Source: Prototheca cutis
Lineage: Eukaryota > Chlorophyta > Trebouxiophyceae > Chlorellales > Chlorellaceae
Reading direction: 5' to 3'
Assembly (NCBI GenBank): GCA_002897115.2
Contig: BCIH01000004.1
Span: 251,820 to 315,819 of the forward strand
Length of the DNA stretch: 64,000 bases
Shown one piece after another: positions 2,823 through 46,413 of the stretch (its first letter is position 1; each line of letters opens with the position of its first letter). Both the position numbers and the translations under genes were made by a program. The notes under the pieces were generated by a model, which saw only the letters and a list, made by a program, of their open reading frames with translations, made no database searches and had not been told where the DNA came from.

Positions 2823-3186
2823 GTTGCCCGGGGTGGTAACATTGGCTCATGAGCAGTGCGTGGTGCCTGCCTTGATGGCAACAGGCAACCAGCTGATGGG
2901 CGATGCTCCTTTGGAAGTGACCCTTGTGGAGCGTGTAATGATACCTCTTGTTTCACTGTGTGGAAGAAAGATGGGCAGGCAAGCAAGCTGGGTGCTGGCC
3001 CTACGAAGTGATCCGGGGGGGGGGGGGGGGGGGGGGGGGGGATGAGGCTGAGCCAGGTCACCGGCAACCATCAGACTGCGGGTGCGACGAGAAACACGGG
3101 CCACACCAGAGGGGAGCCACGGCGAGCTTCATTCCCAAGCGTATTGTCATTCTCTTTGGTACATTTTCAATTTAGAGCAGTCCGGG
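2823..3186. other. Intergenic stretch with a G27 tract
   Basis: No gene is seen. The stretch holds an uninterrupted run of 27 G at 3015-3041 and the presumed promoter and leader of the zinc-finger gene that starts at 3187. Confidence 0.7.
3015..3041. repeat. Homopolymer G27
   Basis: Twenty-seven consecutive G on the + strand. A tract of exactly the same length occurs at 59076-59102. Such runs are prone to sequencing and assembly error, so the true length is uncertain. Confidence 0.95.
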
Positions 3187-4658: not shown

Positions 4659-5115
4659 AGCCTAACAGAGACGCGATGGCTGCTGGGGGAAGACTGGTGC
4701 CTCGCTTGTGCTGCTGACTGGCAACGAGGGTCCACCTGGGCTTTGGGTCGGAATTCGCGATAATCGTGTCACTGATTGCCGCAAATCATGCCATCTGCCG
4801 TCCCTACTGTAAGGTTTTGAGAAATCGGTGTTCATCTAGGGTCCTGGACTTTCCTTTGTTTTGATCAAATTGGCAAGGGCCCAGGTGTCATGGAGCCTTG
4901 AAATGGGGTGGCGTCGAGGTGAGGCTCCGGGCGTGCAGACACGCTATTACAACCACCTTTTCGGCGCTGTTGTACGAGAATACCTGCACCAGGATCGCTT
5001 TCACGGCGATCTTTGGTGTGCAACGAGAATCGGAAAGCTCGTATGTGTTTGTTAAACCCTGGAAAATGCCATTTTGGGAGTTTTCGCTTGCACTCCGCGA
5101 GCGGGAAAGGTGGTC
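4659..5115. other. Intergenic stretch 5' of the permuted tRNA
   Basis: No protein gene is seen. It contains the 3' end of the BuGZ-like transcript and the upstream flank of the tRNA locus. The last bases (GAAAGG at 5105-5110) can pair with CCTTTC at 5220-5225 downstream of the tRNA halves. Confidence 0.6.
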
Positions 5116-5217
5116 ATCAAAAGGTTCAGGGTTCGAGTCCCTGGAGGGAGGTTTGCGCGACCAGTGCGCCTCAGGGCCAACTCCCTCTGGCGCAATGGAT
5201 AGCGCGTTTGACTTCTA
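5116..5217 (+). tRNA. trnR(ucu): Circularly permuted tRNA-Arg(UCU)
   Basis: The 3' half comes first (5116-5151) and the 5' half second (5181-5217), with 29 bases between. Joined in the order 5' half then 3' half they give a perfect 73-nt cloverleaf. The acceptor stem is CTCCCTC/GAGGGAG (7 of 7 pairs). The D stem is GCGC/GCGC with loop AATGGATA. The anticodon stem is TTTGA/TCAAA (5 of 5) with loop C-T-TCT-A-A and anticodon at 5214-5216. The variable loop is AGGTT. The T stem is CAGGG/CCCTG with loop TTCGAGT. G73 is the discriminator and CCA is not encoded. The junction falls between positions 37 and 38. GAAAGG (5105-5110) and CCTTTC (5220-5225) pair outside it, as expected for a bulge-helix-bulge splice site. 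A T4 run at 5231-5234 can end Pol III transcription. The B box precedes the A box. No unpermuted copy is nearby. Confidence 0.93.
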
Positions 5218-5230
5218 CTCCTTTCATCAC

Positions 5231-5234
5231 TTTT
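5231..5234 (+). terminator. Candidate Pol III terminator of the permuted tRNA
   Basis: A run of four T lies 14 bases after the 5' half of the permuted tRNA, the usual simple termination signal of RNA polymerase III. Confidence 0.6.
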
Positions 5235-5412: not shown

Positions 5413-7622
5413 TCACTCCTCATCAGCGGCCTGTTCGGCCTGAGACTCAGTCGGGGTCGGCGCTGCTGCTGCGGGGGCGGGGCGGGCCGCGGTGCCTGCG
5501 ACGGGCACCTGGTAGAACCGCAGCTGCGGCTTGTTGGGTTCACGGACGAGGAGGTAGGTGCCATCGTTCTCGAGCAGCTCGTAGCACAGCTCCAGCAGTG
5601 CACGCACAATGCCCCACGCGTTGTCCATGTTGAGGTTCATCTGCGCAGCAAAGTCCGCGGGCTTGACCGACTGCGTGCCCAGCAGCAGGTGTGACTCTGT
5701 CGACCGCAGCGCCGCACGCGTCACGTAACCCAGCTTGATCACGTCCACGCCACTACAAAAGAGGAATATTGGACGGGCACAGTTTTGCTTTGGAATCATA
5801 GGTGTGCGGTTACTTTGTGTGGAGTTGTGCCAATTGCGGTGCAATGGGTTTATTATTACAAGCCCCACCCCCCCACCCCAAAAATCGTCCCCACCTGAAC
5901 AGCGCGGCGGCGGTCCACTTGGCGACCTTGGCGGCGTTGTTCTTGAGTTCCGTGGCCAGCGCGGCGCCGCGCTGGTTTTCCAGCTTGCCCCGCCAGTCGA
6001 TGCCCGACCACTTTGGGTCAAACTCGTTGAATGCGTGGACAGCCACGAGTGTGGGGGCCATGCCCGGCTCAGGTGCGGTCAGCACGCCGTCGATGGCGCA
6101 GCGCACGACGAGGTCAATGTCGCCCAGGGCCCAGCGGCGGTAGCGGTAGCCCTCGCCGGCCGGGGCAGGGGGCGGGGTCGCGCCCGCAGGGGGCGCGGCA
6201 CCCTCCAGCGCCACGTGGGGACCCTCGGCGTGCAGGGCCAGCGCCTTGAACGCGGCGTGCACGGCCGTGGACTCGGCCGACAGGGCCTGCATGCCGTCGG
6301 TGCGCCGGTCCTCGGGGATAGGATCGGGCGATGACTCGCCATTGGTCAGGTAGTCCAGACTGGATCCGGGGCGCTTGTCCAGGAACAGCTTGTCCCCCCG
6401 CCGTGTGATAACCATGTCCCATGGCACCACGCTCCGCGGTGCAGTCATCAGCGTCGCCAGCAGCTCGTCCGTCAGGAACACGTGGCCCTCGCCCGCCGCG
6501 GCCAGCGCGCGCAGGACGGGGTCGGCAGACGGCGTGGTCTGGCGCCGCGGACCGGGCGGGGGAGGGGGCGCTCCGGGCGCAGCCGCGGGGGCGGCGGGCA
6601 CGCGGGGCAGGCGCAGCGGGGCGCGGGGCGTGACGCGGTCGGCCGTACGGTCGTAGGCCGCCAGCTGTCCCGACACCGCCAGGTCCTCGGGTTCGCCGCC
6701 GGGCCGCGCGTTCATCTTCGCCAGCGCCGTGAAGGGCACCGCGTCGCCCAGCACACGCCACTCGGGGCGGATCTCCACCGAGGGAGAGTACGTGACGCGG
6801 GGCTGGTCACGCCATGCGCCACCCCAGGGCCGCCCACCCGGGCCGCCGCGGCCGCCGGCACCTCCGCGCCCGCCGCGGCCGCCGCCTCCGCGACCGCCGT
6901 CACCGCCTCCGCGACCGCCGTCGCCGCGACCGGCGCCCCAGCCGCCGCGGCCGCCGCCGCGCCCACGCTGTCCGCCCGCGGGCTTGCGCACCACGCGGTT
7001 GTCCACCAGCTCGAACGCATCGTCCTGCGAGACGATGGGGTTCGGGGGGCATGCTGACCACCCATCCATGCACTCATTGCAAGATCGCTCACCCACTCAC
7101 AGCCCAGTCCCCCCCTCCCCCCATCCAGAAAGGTGTCTGGCAAGCGCCTGGCCAGGCCTGGCCCTCATAAAGGCCGATTGCTTGCTCCAGTGCCATCAGC
7201 GCGTCAATATAAGCACGCCCAAAGGAATACCACAGCATCTCTGCTCACCTCCTCGGCCTTCTCAAAGTTGAAGACGGCCATGCCGGGAAGCAGCTCCCGT
7301 TCCCGATACCGGTCTGCAGGGGTGCCGGCGAGGGAGTGCCGTTGTGGGGCTGGTCTCGTGTGCGCAGGTCGCCCAGTACATTCCCGACGCACATTAGCGT
7401 TCATGCGGCAGCTATTACAGCCAAGCAACCCCCCGACACGTCCCCGCACAACGCACTCTGGTAGCCGCGCTGGGCAGCCTGCAGGCTGAAGTCTGCGATC
7501 CTTCCTAGGCGGTCACCCTTGTTGTAGGGCATGAACGGCACATCCTTGAAGGCCGCAGGAATAGATGTTGGGCCCCAGTCCTCATCGTTCTGCTCGATGG
7601 GGGGAAGCTTGAACCCGGGCAT
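5413..7622 (-). CDS. EIF3D: Translation initiation factor eIF3 subunit D
   Basis: This subunit of eIF3 helps recruit mRNA and has a cap-binding core. Four exons on the minus strand are 7457-7622, 7249-7313, 5895-7024 and 5413-5752, giving 566 residues, close to the family length. The N-terminus has the WGP...MPYNKGDRLGRIADF block. Next comes an RG/RGG-rich stretch, then the conserved core (VITRRGDKLFLDKR, WALGDIDLVVRCAID, FNEFDPKWSG). The C-terminus carries IKLGYVTR and DFAAQMNLNMDNAWGIVR and ends acidic (AADEE). The start at 7622 is chosen because family similarity begins at MPGFKLPPI; an ATG in frame at 7676 would add 18 unsupported residues. The Arg-Gly repeat is encoded by very GC-rich DNA and creates long false frames on the other strand. 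Confidence 0.93.
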
Positions 7623-10745: not shown

Positions 10746-13381
10746 ATGGCGCGTCAGGAAGCGAGGCTCAACATTCTGGCTGGGGGTCTGAACTCTCCGA
10801 ACGAGGAGGGCGGCATGGGGAGTGTCGTGGAGGCTGTGCCCACCAGTGCCGCGACGGATGCGATCATGGGGGGGGCCACTTTCGACTACGACTGCCAATC
10901 CGTGGCTCTTCCTGAGAAACTCAACATGCCTGGGCCTTGGACGGTGCACAGGTGAGAGGGACAGGGACTCACGTCGGGGAATTGGTCAGCCGGGTTCCCT
11001 TCCGAGAGCACTGCTGCCTGCTTGGGTCCCCGCGGCTCCTCACCCCTCCATCACGCTGCACCGAACCACGCAGGAATGCCAAGTTCCCTGACCGCTTGCT
11101 GGAGACCTTCGAGGCCCCCGACGATCACATCAGGACCACCTACGACATCCTGGAGGCCAGCGTGGACAAGTACCCCGACGTGCGCTGGTGTCTGGGCTCT
11201 GGGATGGGGTTGCCATTGCGAGGTCTGTGCTGAGCGTGAGTGATTATTTGGGAGTCGTTAGCACCCCAACGATTGGCCACTGGTGCATTGGCCTTTGACT
11301 GGTCGGGTGCTGCAGCAGCCCCTTGCACCCACCCCACAATAAACCACATGCACGCTGTCACCCTCCCCTCTACGAACCGCTAGACCCCAACAACCAACCA
11401 CATACATGTATTCCATGCGCTGCACAGAGGCCGTACCTGGGCACGCGGAGCGTGGACGCCAAGGGCAATCCCGGGGCGTACGAGTGGCTGAGCTACCGTC
11501 AGGTCGGGGAGCTGCGGTCTGCTGTGGCTTCTGGTCTGGCGCACCTGGGCGTGCCCGTCGGCGCGACCGTGGGCCTGTACTCTGCCAACTGCGCGGACTG
11601 GGTGGTCGTTGACGCGGCCCTGCACGCGAGGTCGTGCATCTCTGTGCCGCTGTACGACACGCTGGGCCCCGACGTGGTGACGTACATCTCAAACCACGCC
11701 GAGCTGACCGCGATTGCGTGTTCGGCCGTGGCACTGCCCGCGGTGCTGGAGACGCTGCCTGCAGCGCCCAGCGTGAAGCTGGTCGTCGTGTACGCGCTGC
11801 CGCACGATTTCCGGCTCCCCCCCGCATCGGCGGCCCCCGCGGGTGTGCGATTTGTGACCCTGGACCGCGTTCGCGCGCTGGGCCTCAAGCACCCGTCGCC
11901 CGCGGTGCCGCCCGCGCCATCCGACACGGCGTTGATCAACTACACCAGCGGAACGACTGGCAACCCAAAGGGCGTGGTGGTGACGCACCTCAACATCGTG
12001 TCCAGCTGCGCGGGGACGCTGGCCGGGAGCGAGGTGCTGCAGGCCATCAACGCCACGGAGCGCCACATCTCCTACCTGCCCCTCGCGCACATCTATGAGC
12101 GCGTGTCGCTGCACATGGTGACCTACCTGGGTTCGGCCATCGGGTTCTTCCGCGGCGACGTGCTGACCCTGCTGGACGATCTGCAGGCGCTGAAGCCCAC
12201 CTACTTCCCCTCGGTGCCGCGGCTGTGGAACCGCATCTACGACCGCATCATGGCGGGCGTGGAGGCCAGCGGGCCCGTCAAGCGCCGCCTGTTCTGGACA
12301 GCCTACAACTACAAGCGCGCGCGCCTGGCCGCGGGCGACCCGAGCGGCGGGCGCTTTGCGCCGTTTTGGAACCGGCTCGTGTTTGACAAGATCAAGGCGG
12401 CCACGGGCGGCGAGGTGCGGTGCATGGTCAGCGGCGCGTCGGCCCTGTCGCCCCAAGTGTTTGAGTTCCTCCGCGTCTGCTTTGACTGCACCGTCGTCGA
12501 GGGCTACGGCATGACCGAGTCAGCTTCGGGCGTAGCAGTGTCCCTCCCGGGCGACCCGGTGATCGGGCACGTTGGGCCCCCCACGCCTTCGGCCGAAATC
12601 AAGCTGGATGACGTCCCGGAAATGGGCTACACCAACGAAGACAAGCCCTGCCCCCGCGGCGAAATCTGCATCCGGGGGCCCCAGCGCTTCAAGGAGTACT
12701 ACAAGGACCCTGAAAACACGCGCGACACCATCGACGAAGAGGGCTGGCTTCACACCGGTCCGTTCTGTTGCACTTTTTTTACCCCTTTTGTTTGTTCAAG
12801 TTTGTGTTTGTTGGGTATGCACTGTTTTGCATGGGAGGTATGCCACAAAACGATGAACCGATCAATGGAGACCTGGATCGACCCCTCCCCGGTAAACAGG
12901 CGACATCGGCATGTGGCTGCCGGGTGGGCGTCTGAAGATTATCGACCGCAAGAAGAACATCTTCAAGCTGAGTCAGGGCGAGTACGTGGCGCCGGAGAAG
13001 ATTGAGAACGTGTACCTGCGCGCGCCCCTGGTCGCGCAGTCGTTTGTCCACGGCGACAGCCTCAAGGCTCGTGTCGTGGCCATCGTGATTCCCGACCCCG
13101 AGACGGTCATGCCCTGGGCCCAGTCCCGCGGCATCAAGGGCGATTTTGTCCAGCTGTGTGAGAATCGGGAGGTCAAGGACGCTGTTCTGAAGAGCATGCT
13201 GGAGGAGGGCAAGGCGGCTGGGCTCAAGGGCTTTGAGCAGGTGGCGGACATTGCCCTGAGCCCCGTGCCATTCTCGGTGGAGACCGGCACCATGACCCCC
13301 ACATTCAAGCTCAAGAGGCCACAGCTGCGCCAGGCATTTGCCGAGCAGATTGCCGCCATGTACGCCGGGATCAAGGACTGA
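10746..13381 (+). CDS. LACS: Long-chain acyl-CoA synthetase
   Basis: Activates long-chain fatty acids to acyl-CoA with ATP, feeding lipid synthesis or beta-oxidation. Exons 10746-10951, 11074-11187, 11430-12757 and 12900-13381 keep frame and give 709 residues. The AMP-binding signature INYTSGTTGNPKGVVVTH is intact, as are YGMTESASG, GWLHTGDIG and IDRKKNIFKLSQGEYVAPEK, the last being the LACS-specific hinge region. Exon 3 starts after the AG at 11428-11429; using the AG two bases earlier would create a stop. The first 68 residues are less conserved and may be a membrane or organelle-targeting region. The subcellular site cannot be told from sequence; there is no clear C-terminal peroxisomal tripeptide (it ends GIKD). 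Confidence 0.92.
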
Positions 13382-29816: not shown

Positions 29817-32209
29817 TCACACTTGCTCGGCGGGCGTGGTGGGCTTTTGGGGTTGTACGTCGTCATGGGGCACGACGCCGTCCTCGTCGGTCGACCCCGG
29901 CTTGATGCTGCCGTCCTTGCCCATGAGCTGCTCCGCGGGGATGTTCATGGACGGCTTGTAGATGACTGAGGGGTCGGCGTTCTGCACACTGAGGTCGGGG
30001 GTATCGAGCTCGGGGACGACCAGGGGCTTCTCGCCGGGGAGGATGAGGTTGAGGATGATGGCGGTGACGGCGCCGATGCAAAAGCCCGTCTCGAGGATGA
30101 GGATGATGGCGTCGCGCAGGCCCTTGACGCCCTCGCTCAGGCCTTCGGCGGGCCAGAGGTTGTTGGTGGCCCAGCCCGGCTGCAGCGTGACGCCGATGCC
30201 GAGGGCCATGGCGCAGGCCATGATGAAGCGGTTGCGGCGGCCCAGGTGTTCGGCAATCGTGATCTTGATGCCCGACGCGATGACATTGGCAAACAGGAAC
30301 GTGGTCATGCCACCCAGGACGCAGTTGGGGATGGTAGTAATCACGCCGCCAAACTTGCCGATCAGCCCAAAAATGAACAGCCAGCCTGCACAGGCCCAGC
30401 CGGCCTGCCGCGAGGCCACGGCCGTGAGCGCGATGATGCCGTTGTTCTGCGCAAACGTCGTCAGGGGCAGCGTGGTGGCCAGCGCGGAGAAGATGCCGGA
30501 GATGCCGTCGTTGAGCAGCGCGCCCTGCGTGCGCTTGTTGTGCACGGGGCCGGACGTCTGCAAGAAGGAAGCCTCCTCTGTGGCCGACACGTCCCCCACC
30601 GTCTCGATGGAGGTGATGCAAAACACGATGATCAGGGGCAGGATGGCGGGGCCGTAGACGTTGAGCGGGAAAGTGTGCACCCAGAGGAAGGTAATCGCTG
30701 GCGCCTGCTGGATCTTCGTCCCCGTGACAAACCGTTGGCCGTCGGCACGGGTCACGCCTGCCAGCATGTAGCCAAACAGCAGGGAGATGATGACGCCGCA
30801 GTTGCGGAGGAAGGGCGAGCCGAACAGCTCGATGATGACCAGCATGACAAACACGGAAAACCCGAGCCCCACGTACGGGCCCGAACCAAAGGGCAGCAGG
30901 ACGTTGCCGTTGCCGGAGCACATGATGGGGACGTTGGTGTAGCAGGTGTCCAGCGTCGTCACCGCGCCAGATGTCGTGTTGGTGACGGTGCACTCCCCGG
31001 ACTGCGCGATGTAGAGCCCGGCCTGGTTGGACGCGCAGAACGAGCCGCCACCCCAGTTGGCCATGCCCGTTCCGGTGAGGTTGATGCCGATCAGTATGAT
31101 GGTCACGCCGCAGACAATGGGGGGGAAGATGCGCTTGAGGGCCCGGGGGGGGAGCATCGAGATCAGAATGGGTGTGACGCCCACGCACGCCAGCGAACCC
31201 AGCACGTAGCCGTATGCCTCCTTGAACGTGTGGCCCTCGCCCATCAGCGTTGTGATGGTGCTCACAGCAATGGGGTATGTGGTGAAGGAAATGCCCATCA
31301 CGGACAGAATGCCCGCGCCCCACTGCCGGTTGAAGGGCAGTGGGATGCCAGTCACCTGTAGATTTGGTGGATGGTGGTTGGGGGNGGGAGGGTGGCTGAG
31401 GGGTGGCGGAGCGGGTGGATGGAATTGGTACATGGTACATGGTGGTGGTTACGGCATGGGGCATGGGTGGGCGACGCACGTCTAACAGTGGTAAGTTTGC
31501 GGTGTGGGGCAAGTGTCGTGTTGCAGTCACGAGGAGCTACGATCTCCCACCGCCAAACACCCCCAGTCAATCACACATGCGCGCGTCGATCAGTACCTGG
31601 ACGGCCGTCATCATGGAAGCCACCAACAAGGCAGCCGAGACAAGGTACTGGGAGATGGTGTTCACATCAGACTCGCTCAGAGTTGGGTCATTTGCCGCGT
31701 AGCCGGCCACCAGCAGCGGCGGGCTGCAAGAGTGGGAGTGGGGCACGGGGTGCTGTGAGGCGGGAGCTGGTAGGTGGGATCGGACACGCTCATCTCATCG
31801 ACAACACCAGCATCCCCAAAGATCCCCAATCACGCACGTGATCAGGCCGCCGACCATGGCCATGGCGTGCTGGAGACCCATGAGGATGGCGGTCACAATG
31901 CCCAGCCAGGCATTCACGGCGAAAAACGCTGGTGGGTCACGCTTGGCCCGGGAGAAAGGGTTGGAGGGCATGCACAGGTATTTCTGCGAAGCAAAGGGCG
32001 TCGGAAGCAGAGATGAGCACATGCAATCAGAAGATCGGGAGCCGTATGGCAACACGTGCAGTGCCCGGACGGAGGCCGACCCAGGATTGCTGCCTTGCTA
32101 TGCAAGGGAACGCTCCAGCCACAACCCCCGACCAGCGTACGTAGTCATAGTCGCCAAGGAAGAGGTACCGCCACTGCTTGGCCTTGAAGGCCTCGATCGC
32201 CCGACCCAT
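29817..32209 (-). CDS. Purine/xanthine permease (NAT/NCS2 family)
   Basis: Plasma-membrane nucleobase-cation symporter. Exons on the minus strand are 32141-32209, 31838-31983, 31597-31723 and 29817-31355, giving 626 residues with about 12-14 hydrophobic spans. The NAT signature is seen as FAQNNGIIALT (Q-N-N-G-x-x-x-x-T), and the TM8 region as SIETVGDVSATEE. The start QHAMAMVGG matches the conserved QH motif of TM1. The overall pattern, with a long cytosolic tail of about 70 residues and the SIETVGD/ATTLPLTTFAQNNG blocks, recalls fungal UapA/UapC and green algal relatives rather than land-plant NATs; this is impression, not a tree. The loop NTTSGAVTTLDTCYTN has several Cys and possible glycosylation sites. 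It is followed upstream on the same strand by a deaminase of the same pathway (32974-35420). Confidence 0.9.
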
Positions 32210-42652: not shown

Positions 42653-45600
42653 TCAGATCACCCTGTTCCGGATGTCCTCCAACTTCTTCAGCACTTCCCC
42701 TGGCGTCCGGTCGAGCTCCGCCGCAATCTTCAGTGAAGAGAGTGGGTTTGGGAAAGGGGCTTGATGGGTGGGGCAGCCCCGGGTGCCCGATCCGAGGGAA
42801 ATACAAGGCTCACGTCGATGCCCACACCGACACCACCAATCAATACAAACACCCGGACCTGGCGCTGCTTGTCGGCAGGCAGCTGCGAAAACTGCTCGCA
42901 GAGGTCCCCATCCGCGACGTCCTTGACCGGGAAGTAGTACGACCTGCAGAAATTTTTTTAGGGTGGGTGAGGGTGTGTGTCAGGGAAAACCTCTGAATTT
43001 CTATTTCTTTGATCGCGGCCTTTTGGGGGCATTCCATGGGACTTGGGGTAGTGGCCAACGCCAGGGTGGCTGGCGTGCTGCGGGCGCAACCCTCAACCGA
43101 CATCCCCCTCCACCCGTCTACCCAACACTCAAGCAATCTTGCCAACAGACCTGTATGCCATGTGATCACGGCCCAGCAGGGGCGGCGCCTCTGCCCGCAT
43201 GTGCAGCTCGAGGTGCTGGAAAAAGTCAATGTCCTCTCGCGAGGCAAGGGGGTAGAGCACGTCCAGGCCGCCCATGATGGTCGCGTAAAAGATGACCTCG
43301 CGCCCGCCGGGCTGCAGCGTGCCGCGCTGCAGCGCCGTCACGGTCTCGCCAACGTGGAAGTTCATCACGGGCTCCACCTTGTTCGGCGCGCCGCCGAGGA
43401 GACCACCCTGTCCGGCAAATTTGCCCCCTGTCGGGTCCTCCTCCACCTGTGTGTTTCCGTGTTTGTTTTTCAGTTTTATGTGTGATCCATTTGTGTGAGT
43501 CATGCATGAAGCAGTGCATGAAGATGCATTTTGTGAGGTGTCTGTACTGCTTGAATTACCTGTCATGTTCCCCCCAACCACCCCCACTGCACCTCAATCT
43601 CAATATGCACAACTTGCCTGGTTGGACAGCTCTGGCGGCAGGCGGACGACAAAGGCGTTGCCGAACCGGTCGGCGCCCGCGACGGTGTCGTAGTCGAGCG
43701 TCAGAAGCGACGTGACTGCACGGGGCACAGTGTCGTCTGCAAACGCATAAAAGCTGCCGTCCGAGGTGCGGTACTTCAGGTACGTCACCGACTGCGCGGC
43801 ATCCCCGACGTAGACGCGATTTCCAGACACTGCCAGCCGCGCCACGGCAGTGGGCAGCCCGCGCAGCTCGCTCTTGCGCAGCAGACGCTTGCGTCCGATG
43901 TCAAACAGCCGCACGCCGGCGCCCACGCCAGCCAGCAGCCGGCCCCGGAACTCCGCCAGAGCCCGTGGAATGCCGTCCAGGTCCGTCGTGTGCACGTGCT
44001 CCAACCGCCGCCCGTCGGCCGAAAAGCGGAAAACGTGGATCGCGCCGCCACCTTGCGCACGGGTGGGGTAAAACTGGAGCCCCCTGGCGACGCCAACGGC
44101 CAGATGCGGCGCGGACTGGCCCTCAAATCGCACCAGCGCCGCGCTCAGAGCCGCCTCATCGCCTCCCAGCTCGATGCAATCGGCAGTTGCGAGTGTTGCG
44201 GGGTCCACGACGCGCACGCATGACCCCCACTGGCCCGGCAGCCCCGTCGTCGCGCCGATCCGCGCCCGCTCCACTGCGGATTCCTCCTCGGCCTCGGGAC
44301 CTGAAGATCGCCGCATGGTCTCTGGCAGTGGGCCCCCGTGCTCTTGGGCATCATCATTATCGTTGCCATCGGCCGTGGTGGCTGGAACAGCAACTCCAGA
44401 CCCATTGCTTGTGTCCGGGGGTCCTTCATCGTCTCCCACCGCCACCCCCACCGCGGCGTGGTCGGCTTCCAGTGTCAGCAAAACCGCGTGGTCGGGGTGA
44501 ATCAGCAGCGCGCGGGGCGTGTAGCGCAGGTGCGCGGTGCGGCAGTCAAACCTTTGACCGGGGCGCTCGACGACCATGACGCGGAGCGTGGCCCCGCTGA
44601 CGCCGACGATGCCCTCGGGACAGGCCTCTGAGGAGAACGCAGCGGCAGCGTCCAGCGGCGCGCACGTGGCAGGGAGGAGTTCCCATCGCCCACCAGCCCC
44701 CGCGCCGCCCAGCCAGACGCGCGACGACAGTGCCAGCAGCGCCGGCGCCCCTGCGATGCTTACGGGGGCCAATTTTGGAGGCCGGGTGCCCAGGAACCGG
44801 GAGCGTGCGTCGCTCAGCGCCCCCGTCACGGGGTCGGCCTCGACGCGATGAAGCAGTCCGTTCACCAAGCCCGCCTGCAACGACAGCGCCCCCCCCGCGG
44901 CCCCCGCGGCCAACAGGGCGACCGACTCGGCCGGGGCGGGCAGCGCCTGCGTGGCCAGTGGACGCAGCAGGGACTCGGGGTCCAGGCCCAGCACGCGCAG
45001 CGTGGCATCTCCCAGGGCGACGGCCAGCAGCGGCGCGCGCGTCCGGCCCTCGGGTATGGGGGCCAGCGCCAGCGCCCCCACCTCTGACCCCAGCGGCCGT
45101 CGCTCCGCCTCTGTTAATTGGCCGCCTGCGCCCAGCTCAAACAGTACAAGTTCGCCGCCGGCCAGCGCCAAAGCCACCTGGCGTGCATTGGCCGCGGCAC
45201 GTGTGACTCTGAGTCCTCCTGGCGCACGCCACTCGTTGGCGCGACCGTCGGGGCGCACGTGCCGCAGGCCCCCCGGGTGCGCCTGTACCAGCGAACCGTC
45301 GGCCAGCCGCGCGGCCGCCAGCGTTGAGACGCCGCCGGCCAGACCGCTGTCGGCCGCTTCCTCCACCGTTTCACCCACTCGAAGCACGAGCGTCGCCGAG
45401 GAAAAAGAGACCACGATGAACCCGTCGCCGCCTGACCCGGGTCCAGGCCCCACCGTGAACACGGCCGTGGCCGCCGCAGGGAGCGGCGACGCTGCGGCCT
45501 CCGTCAGTGCCACGCCGGGGCGCAGCACACGCAGCGTGGACCGTGCCCCCCGGCCGCACGCCGCATACAGCTGTGCCACCTCCTCCCCGGCCAGGTTGGC

Positions 45601-46413
45601 CACCTTGAGGTCCAATATGGGCGCCAGCGATTCCACCTCGTCGATCGACTCAAGGTTGGTCAGTGCTCGAGGCTCGAAAAAGACTGCAGCAAGGTGTAGC
45701 GAGTGAGTGGGTGTGGTGCTCGGGAGTTCGCAGCGAGGACGCCGGCACGCCAACGTACTCCCCGCAGGAGCTCCGCATGCCCCATCCCCGCAACCCCATC
45801 CGCACCAGGCTGGAAACCCTCCTCGACCTCCATCAGTGTGGAGGCGCTTGAGCTCACCGCATCGTCATCGCCCAGACCCTGTGTCGGCGGTGCGTGGAAA
45901 TTGTGTGGAAAGCGAGGATGTCAATGCGGCCCCCTGAACACAGCCAAATGAGCGGATGCCGCTTGCACACTGGGTGCAGCACGCACATCACACAAAATGC
46001 ACCCCAGGACCTCTCCATCCATCCACACGTACCTGGAACTGGTAGAGCGTGTGGTCACCCGTCTCCGAGGCGGCAAACAGGAAACCGCGGCGCAGCACCG
46101 CGATGGAGGTGGCGGGGGGGATGGTGTCAAAGTACCGAACCGTAAGGTCCCGGACCACCTCCCCCTCCCAGTCCAGTGTAACCTTGTACAGATCGCCATA
46201 CTCGCTCTGCAGGCAGGGATTTTTGTTCATGGATGGTGTTGGTTGAGGGTGTTGCCTTTTATTGTCTTGTCTTAATATGGGGAAGAGAGCATTCTGGGAA
46301 GGTGGAGAGCCTCTTTGGGCATGGCACCCCTGCGGCCGGTCGTCCTCACACCACCTAAACTGTCATTCCCCTCCCAACCCATCATCATTCTTTCAATCCC
46401 CCCTCTCCCCCCA

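Follow-up and report, generated by a model that had tools for sequence, protein, structure and literature searches.

Our question was whether two tRNA halves that lie in reversed order in the DNA of Prototheca cutis, a colourless green alga, form a working tRNA gene, and how far such a gene stands alone in its genome. The window, by which we mean the whole stretch of 64,000 nucleotides that was analysed, comes from assembly GCA_002897115.2 of P. cutis JCM 15793, for which Table 1 of PMC11302234 gives 20,029,045 bp in 46 scaffolds. A preliminary description had placed the 3' half of a tRNA-Arg(UCU) 29 nt upstream of its own 5' half. The sequence and our scanner, which looks for the four stems of a permuted tRNA (T-arm, acceptor, D-arm, anticodon stem) and has the cut fixed at 37/38, agree with this: the permuted gene spans 5116-5217 on the forward strand, with the 3' half, a 29-nt spacer and the 5' half in that order. 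Its parts, with the basis of each placement, are the following.

5105..5110 (+): GAAAGG, 5' flank arm of the junction helix; exact complement of 5220-5225
5111..5115 (+): TGGTC, end of the 5' flank, predicted to be cut off before A38 (sequence)
5116..5151 (+): 3' half of tRNA-Arg(UCU), positions 38-73 (sequence, scanner)
5116 (+): A38 (sequence, scanner)
5117-5121 (+): TCAAA, anticodon 3' strand (sequence, scanner)
5122-5126 (+): AGGTT, variable loop (sequence, scanner)
5127-5143 (+): CAGGG-TTCGAGT-CCCTG, T-arm (sequence, scanner)
5144-5150 (+): GAGGGAG, acceptor 3' strand (sequence, scanner)
5151 (+): G73 (sequence, scanner)
5152..5180 (+): intervening sequence of 29 nt (3' trailer plus 5' leader), free of T4 runs (scanner)
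5181..5217 (+): 5' half of tRNA-Arg(UCU), positions 1-37 (sequence, scanner)
5181-5187 (+): CTCCCTC, acceptor 5' strand, then T8 and G9 (sequence, scanner)
5190-5205 (+): D-arm, its loop with GG (sequence, scanner)
5207-5211 (+): TTTGA, anticodon 5' strand (sequence, scanner)
5212-5217 (+): CTTCTA, positions 32-37 (sequence, scanner)
5214-5216 (+): TCT, anticodon (sequence)
5220..5225 (+): CCTTTC, 3' flank arm of the junction helix; exact complement of 5105-5110
5231..5234 (+): TTTT, likely RNA polymerase III terminator (sequence)

When the halves are rejoined they form the fully paired 73-nt cloverleaf that had been described, with 7+4+5+5 = 21 of 21 stem pairs Watson-Crick and no G-U, and T8, the D-loop GG, T33 and TTC are all kept. 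The T4 run reported downstream of the 5' half is also in place, and CCA is not encoded. The cloverleaf is the fold of lowest free energy for the joined sequence. Two folding results speak against a working gene: the joined sequence folds only moderately better than its shuffles (z -1.91; 9 of 200 do as well), and the linear precursor (5105-5225), when left to fold freely, prefers another structure, with a minimum of -51.4 kcal/mol versus -44.0 kcal/mol with the cloverleaf and the flank helix imposed. R1, a covariance model that we built from 11 permuted genes, matches 5116-5217 at 71.4 bits, this gene itself being among the training sequences.

The gene lies on a contig of 1,598,030 bases (C4) near a reading frame for eIF3 subunit D, which indicates that it is nuclear. 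Four reading frames in the window were named:

5810-7096 (-): eIF3 subunit D
11323-13005 (+): AMP-binding enzyme
29817-31433 (-): xanthine/uracil permease
43600-45753 (-): SF3B3

A tree of 27 SF3B3 proteins, in which the window and P. wickerhamii rows are among those with an unusual amino acid make-up, joins P. cutis to P. wickerhamii (100/96) and then to Auxenochlorella (100/100). Together with the eIF3 frame this bears out the placement of the gene in the nuclear genome of a trebouxiophyte. At 3015-3041 the window also holds 27 consecutive G, possibly a true homopolymer or an assembly fault.

The preliminary description had the flanks GAAAGG and CCTTTC able to form a bulge-helix-bulge at a 37/38 junction. 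The flank helix stands, as six perfect base pairs. At the junction, C32 can pair with G at -3 (the A-I pair) and U33 faces G at -4, but a U-U mismatch follows, so that the central helix is broken at its third position; judged by its sequence, the motif is a relaxed form, short of the strict bulge-helix-bulge. Likewise 37/38 fits the sequence, but a 38/39 join with C38 is also possible by sequence. A 36/37 join would give C at position 37, where all 42 permuted genes as we placed them (see below) have a purine, and 37/38 is the cut given for eukaryotic endonucleases in the review PMC3978253. Such ambiguity is found in some genes of the set: 11 of 42 have the same base at 38 and directly after 37, and 6 of 42 have the same base at 37 and directly before 38.

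The flanks of the 42 genes pair better with their own partners than with swapped ones. The mean best-helix score is 7.36 versus 5.98, a value reached by none of 1000 shuffles, and 24 of 42 genes allow the A-I pair versus 18.4 with swapped flanks (again 0 of 1000), these tests using the scanner's placement of the Trp gene, so that its flank data are off. With one gene per anticodon (n = 28), the scores are 7.07 versus 5.93 (1 of 1000 shuffles), and the A-I pair is possible in 18 of 28 versus a null of 14.5 (0 of 1000). The standard A-I pair is absent in the other 18 of 42; since all four central pairs are possible in only 8 of 42 and the A-I pair in 24, these junctions are mostly of the relaxed kind.

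It had been expected that a standard tRNA scan would miss the gene. This is the case: neither ARAGORN nor Rfam at its gathering score reports a tRNA in the window. Our scanner gives the gene a score of 48. The controls, namely 60 Markov-1 copies of the window, shuffled loci amounting to 2.56 Mb and two runs on reversed loci (51 and 151 records), gave no hit of 35 or more; the highest control match was 34, once in each reversed run and once in the Markov run. The preliminary description had also proposed a check for a second tRNA-Arg(UCU) gene, and none was found. When the joined tRNA minus G73 (72 nt) was used as a BLAST query against the 19.9-Mb genome, these two halves were the only matches, and Arg(UCU) is absent among the 17 ordered genes and the other permuted genes of the 42 that we found. 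Decoding of AGA requires a UCU anticodon, and the codon is in use, as 1 of the 60 Arg codons in the SF3B3 reading frame.

The gene had been described as a single case. It is real, but this picture was incomplete: 42 of the 59 tRNA genes found in the genome are permuted. The genome search covered 19,886,974 bases in 23 contigs. B-box-like word searches gave 452 places (43, 54, 88, 47, 87, 104 and 29, with 100 of the last-but-one 104 listed), of which about 260 by hand count lie in scanned sequence (43, 54, 67, 25, 44, 20 and 7). Most of the places are chance words, the backward control being about equal or higher in the searches that gave 54, 47 and 104. Combined with the scanner, these searches yield at least 42 distinct permuted genes with 28 anticodons, a lower bound with 37/38 as the sole junction searched. 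Duplicates were counted once (L226 repeats the L033 gene, and both L009 and L010 hold the Arg(UCU) gene of the window). The permuted genes, one each unless a number is given, are:

Ala: AGC 3, CGC 2, UGC
Arg: CCG, UCG, UCU
Asn: GUU 2
Cys: GCA
Gln: CUG 2, UUG
Glu: CUC 4
Gly: GCC 4, CCC, UCC
His: GUG
Ile: AAU 2, UAU
Leu: AAG, UAA
Pro: UGG
Ser: CGA, UGA
Thr: AGU 2, UGU
Trp: CCA
Tyr: GUA
Val: CAC 2, UAC

The 42 genes score 41 to 48 with the scanner, which finds no stem mismatch in 37 of them and one in the other 5; the counts become 36 and 6 with a better placement of the Trp gene (L227). For this gene the scanner gives a 21-nt variable loop; R1 places its start at L227:88, which makes the loop a normal one and leaves U-U at 27-43. 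We think that the R1 placement is the right one. On type I genes outside its training set, copies of the trained Glu and Gly genes excluded, R1 scores 46.5 to 67.4 bits. For the four permuted genes whose variable arms are long R1 gives 28.8 to 44.9 bits, which overlaps the scores of pieces of ordered tRNA genes that R1 also matches (up to 32.0 bits, in L020 and L011), and these four therefore rest on the scanner.

Some candidates were left out of the count. Three weak R1 matches (L063, L069 and L073 at 18.6, 12.8 and 9.4 bits) had no support from the scanner. Another place, seen as both L156 and L246, resembles a permuted gene that lacks its variable loop (28.1 bits). At L156 1043-1126 on contig C2 its acceptor, D-arm and anticodon stem are intact, the apparent anticodon is GGC and a T5 run follows, but the place of the variable loop is short by about 5-6 nt; it is perhaps a decayed permuted gene.

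The spacers of the 42 genes run from 9 to 80 nt with a median of 13. Nine nucleotides is both the shortest and the commonest length (12 of 42), and this floor hints at a minimum for the action of RNase P and RNase Z on a circle. The Gln spacers are long, 41 nt in L008, where the spacer contains a second T-arm-like word, and 39 nt in L137. The latter locus (contig C10, 42500-42845) carries permuted Gln(CUG) and Thr(AGU) genes about 150 bases apart on opposite strands.

In all 42 genes the 5' half is followed within 20 nt by the start of a T4 run. Such a run lies inside the spacer of one gene of 42 (Arg UCG, L049) and within the 20 nt that precede the 3' half of one gene of 42; within 40 nt upstream it is seen in 7 of 38. 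The two ten-base bins from -50 to -31 are slightly richer in AT (0.59 and 0.54) than the rest of the 100 nt (0.39-0.50). A TATA-like word occurs at -60 to -30 in 11 of the 37 genes with 100 nt upstream, at -30 to 0 in 3 of 37, and at -100 to -70 in none. The A and B boxes stand in reversed order in these genes. The genome holds one partial match to the TFIIIC subunit Tau95 (30 residues, 31.1 bits, cut-off 23.7), and because this subunit seems to have been kept, TFIIIC may recognise the two boxes in their reversed arrangement or may be bypassed.

A whole-genome Rfam tRNA search, with anticodons named by ARAGORN, gave 17 ordered tRNAs above the cut-off with 10 anticodons, a lower bound because 63 of 246 candidates were scored:

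Ordered, no intron noted: Lys CUU 2; Arg ACG 2; Arg CCU; Phe GAA; Met CAU; Leu CAG 3
Ordered, with intron: Leu CAA; Asp GUC 3; Pro AGG 2; Pro CGG

The introns of the ordered Asp, Pro and Leu(CAA) genes lie at about 37/38, so an endonuclease that acts there should exist. The single Met tRNA found looks like the initiator. Three further ARAGORN calls were taken as spurious: L034, read as Phe aaa with an intron of 59 nt and also matching the tRNA model at 19.4 bits, under the Rfam cut-off; L037, whose anticodon is incomplete; and L112, read as Ala ggc with an intron of 68 nt. The permuted and ordered sets have no anticodon in common. Eight expected anticodons were seen in neither form by these non-exhaustive searches, namely Glu(UUC), Leu(UAG), Lys(UUU), elongator Met, Ser(AGA), Ser(GCU), Thr(CGU) and Val(AAC). 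With at least 28 of 38 detected anticodons, in 42 of 59 detected nuclear genes, seen in permuted form only, it is likely that the permuted form is the default tRNA gene of P. cutis and that most of its translation runs on circular pre-tRNAs, bearing in mind that the 42:17 ratio compares two unlike and non-exhaustive searches.

Looking at how else the locus could be read helps to show what carries the preferred reading. The gene could be a fossil, the cell using another tRNA-Arg(UCU) that the searches missed. It is seen here as DNA sequence, the genome search scores the best candidates only, and one decayed permuted-like locus seems to exist elsewhere (L156 1043-1126), all of which leaves some room for a pseudogene. 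We still consider this improbable, given that all 21 stem pairs and the conserved bases are intact, the T-run is present and a second copy was not found. A chance arrangement of tRNA-like words has a negligible probability when the gene scores 48 and the shuffled, reversed and Markov controls hold nothing at 35 or above, and it was rejected.

The same was done with two readings that accept the halves and explain their order in another way, both of which we regard as very improbable. One is a split tRNA made from two separate transcripts joined in trans. In archaeal split tRNAs the flanks of the separate halves pair, and here too the halves are separate pieces of DNA with pairing flanks. However, the Arg(UCU) halves are 29 nt apart with no T4 run between them, which does not make two transcription units, and in the set of 42 the 9-80 nt spacers (median 13) have a T4 run in just one case and would mostly be too short for a second promoter. 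The other is a tandem duplication or mis-assembly of an ordinary gene, in which the end of one copy precedes the start of the next. This would yield the same order of halves, and may even be how permuted genes arise, but BLAST finds no other piece of the Arg(UCU) tRNA in the genome and the same plan is repeated at 42 loci with 28 anticodons.

The locus is thus very probably a working, and probably the sole, nuclear gene for tRNA-Arg(UCU), of the type II permuted kind, in a genome where the permuted form is the majority. This prediction starts from the anatomy of the gene, its T-run, the complementarity of its flanks and the fact that no other copy was detected; transcription, a circular intermediate, processing and charging are inferred by analogy with the pathway of Cyanidioschyzon merolae. 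RNA polymerase III would make a single linear transcript of 5' flank, 3' half, 29-nt spacer, 5' half, 3' flank and U-run. The two halves would fold together while the flanks pair, and the tRNA splicing endonuclease would cut at the 37/38 junction and release the flanks. A tRNA ligase would then join A37 to A38 to give a circular pre-tRNA, from which RNase P and RNase Z would excise the spacer at the acceptor stem before CCA is added.

Permuted tRNA genes have so far been treated as rare, the 2014 review PMC3978253 counting 34 from seven organisms. With at least 42 of them in one genome, for 28 anticodons of which no ordered copy was detected, what was a curiosity becomes a main source of tRNA, and this suggests that permuted order is the usual way of encoding tRNA in P. 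cutis. Three questions become testable: why a lineage would switch its gene order wholesale, how RNA polymerase III initiates on genes with reversed A and B boxes, and whether tRNA production needs a circular stage. In practical terms, standard tRNA annotation does not work for this genome and may not for the clade, which includes agents of human and animal protothecosis. If the permuted form is the default, published standard-scanner counts of the clade would miss most nuclear tRNA genes. The published account in PMC7941945 gives 64 tRNA genes by tRNAscan for P. wickerhamii, with all tRNAs except Sec encoded, 71 for A. protothecoides and 29 for Helicosporidium. These counts are in tension with a permuted majority, and either ordered genes are frequent in those algae or the totals are made up by organelle tRNAs. 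At least some of the counts are the output of a standard scanner, and they may consist largely of organelle tRNAs together with the few ordered nuclear genes.

How the P. cutis genes compare with known systems can be told from the published accounts. Permuted genes would have been extended to trebouxiophytes by our locus according to the preliminary description, but this range had already been reported in 2025 in the Plant Cell paper on Auxenochlorella UTEX 250-A (PMC12636532; preprint PMC12633428), the nearest relative with permuted tRNA genes and of the same clade. In that paper the tRNAscan-SE set is described as incomplete, as are the standard scans in P. cutis. In the open papers searched we found no report of permuted tRNA genes in Prototheca, the Auxenochlorella paper being the only work that came up for Prototheca or Auxenochlorella. 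A permuted Arg(TCT) gene with a 37/38 junction was known too, from the prasinophyte Ostreococcus tauri, and is the closest known counterpart. By Table 1 of PMC3978253 it shares with ours the order of the halves, the anticodon and, as far as the sequence places them in P. cutis, the junction and a relaxed motif, with an intervening sequence of 11 nt compared with 29 nt in P. cutis; the same table gives prasinophytes three to six permuted genes per genome, against at least 42 here. The nucleomorph of Amorphochlora amoebiformis has two permuted Ser genes, and those of two Lotharella species have none in the account of PMC4494063. In C. merolae, where the pathway through a circular RNA was worked out, the order of the halves and the T-run after the 5' half are the same as in P. 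cutis. As PMC3978253 tells it, that alga has 11 of 43 tRNA genes permuted with junctions at four places, whereas P. cutis has 42 of the 59 found, at 37/38 as the sole junction searched; and homologues of the TFIIIC subunits TFC1 and TFC3 are given there as not identified, while P. cutis has the partial Tau95 match. The kind of gene is known, then, and ours is another permuted tRNA gene; what may be new is the wholesale use that P. cutis makes of the form.
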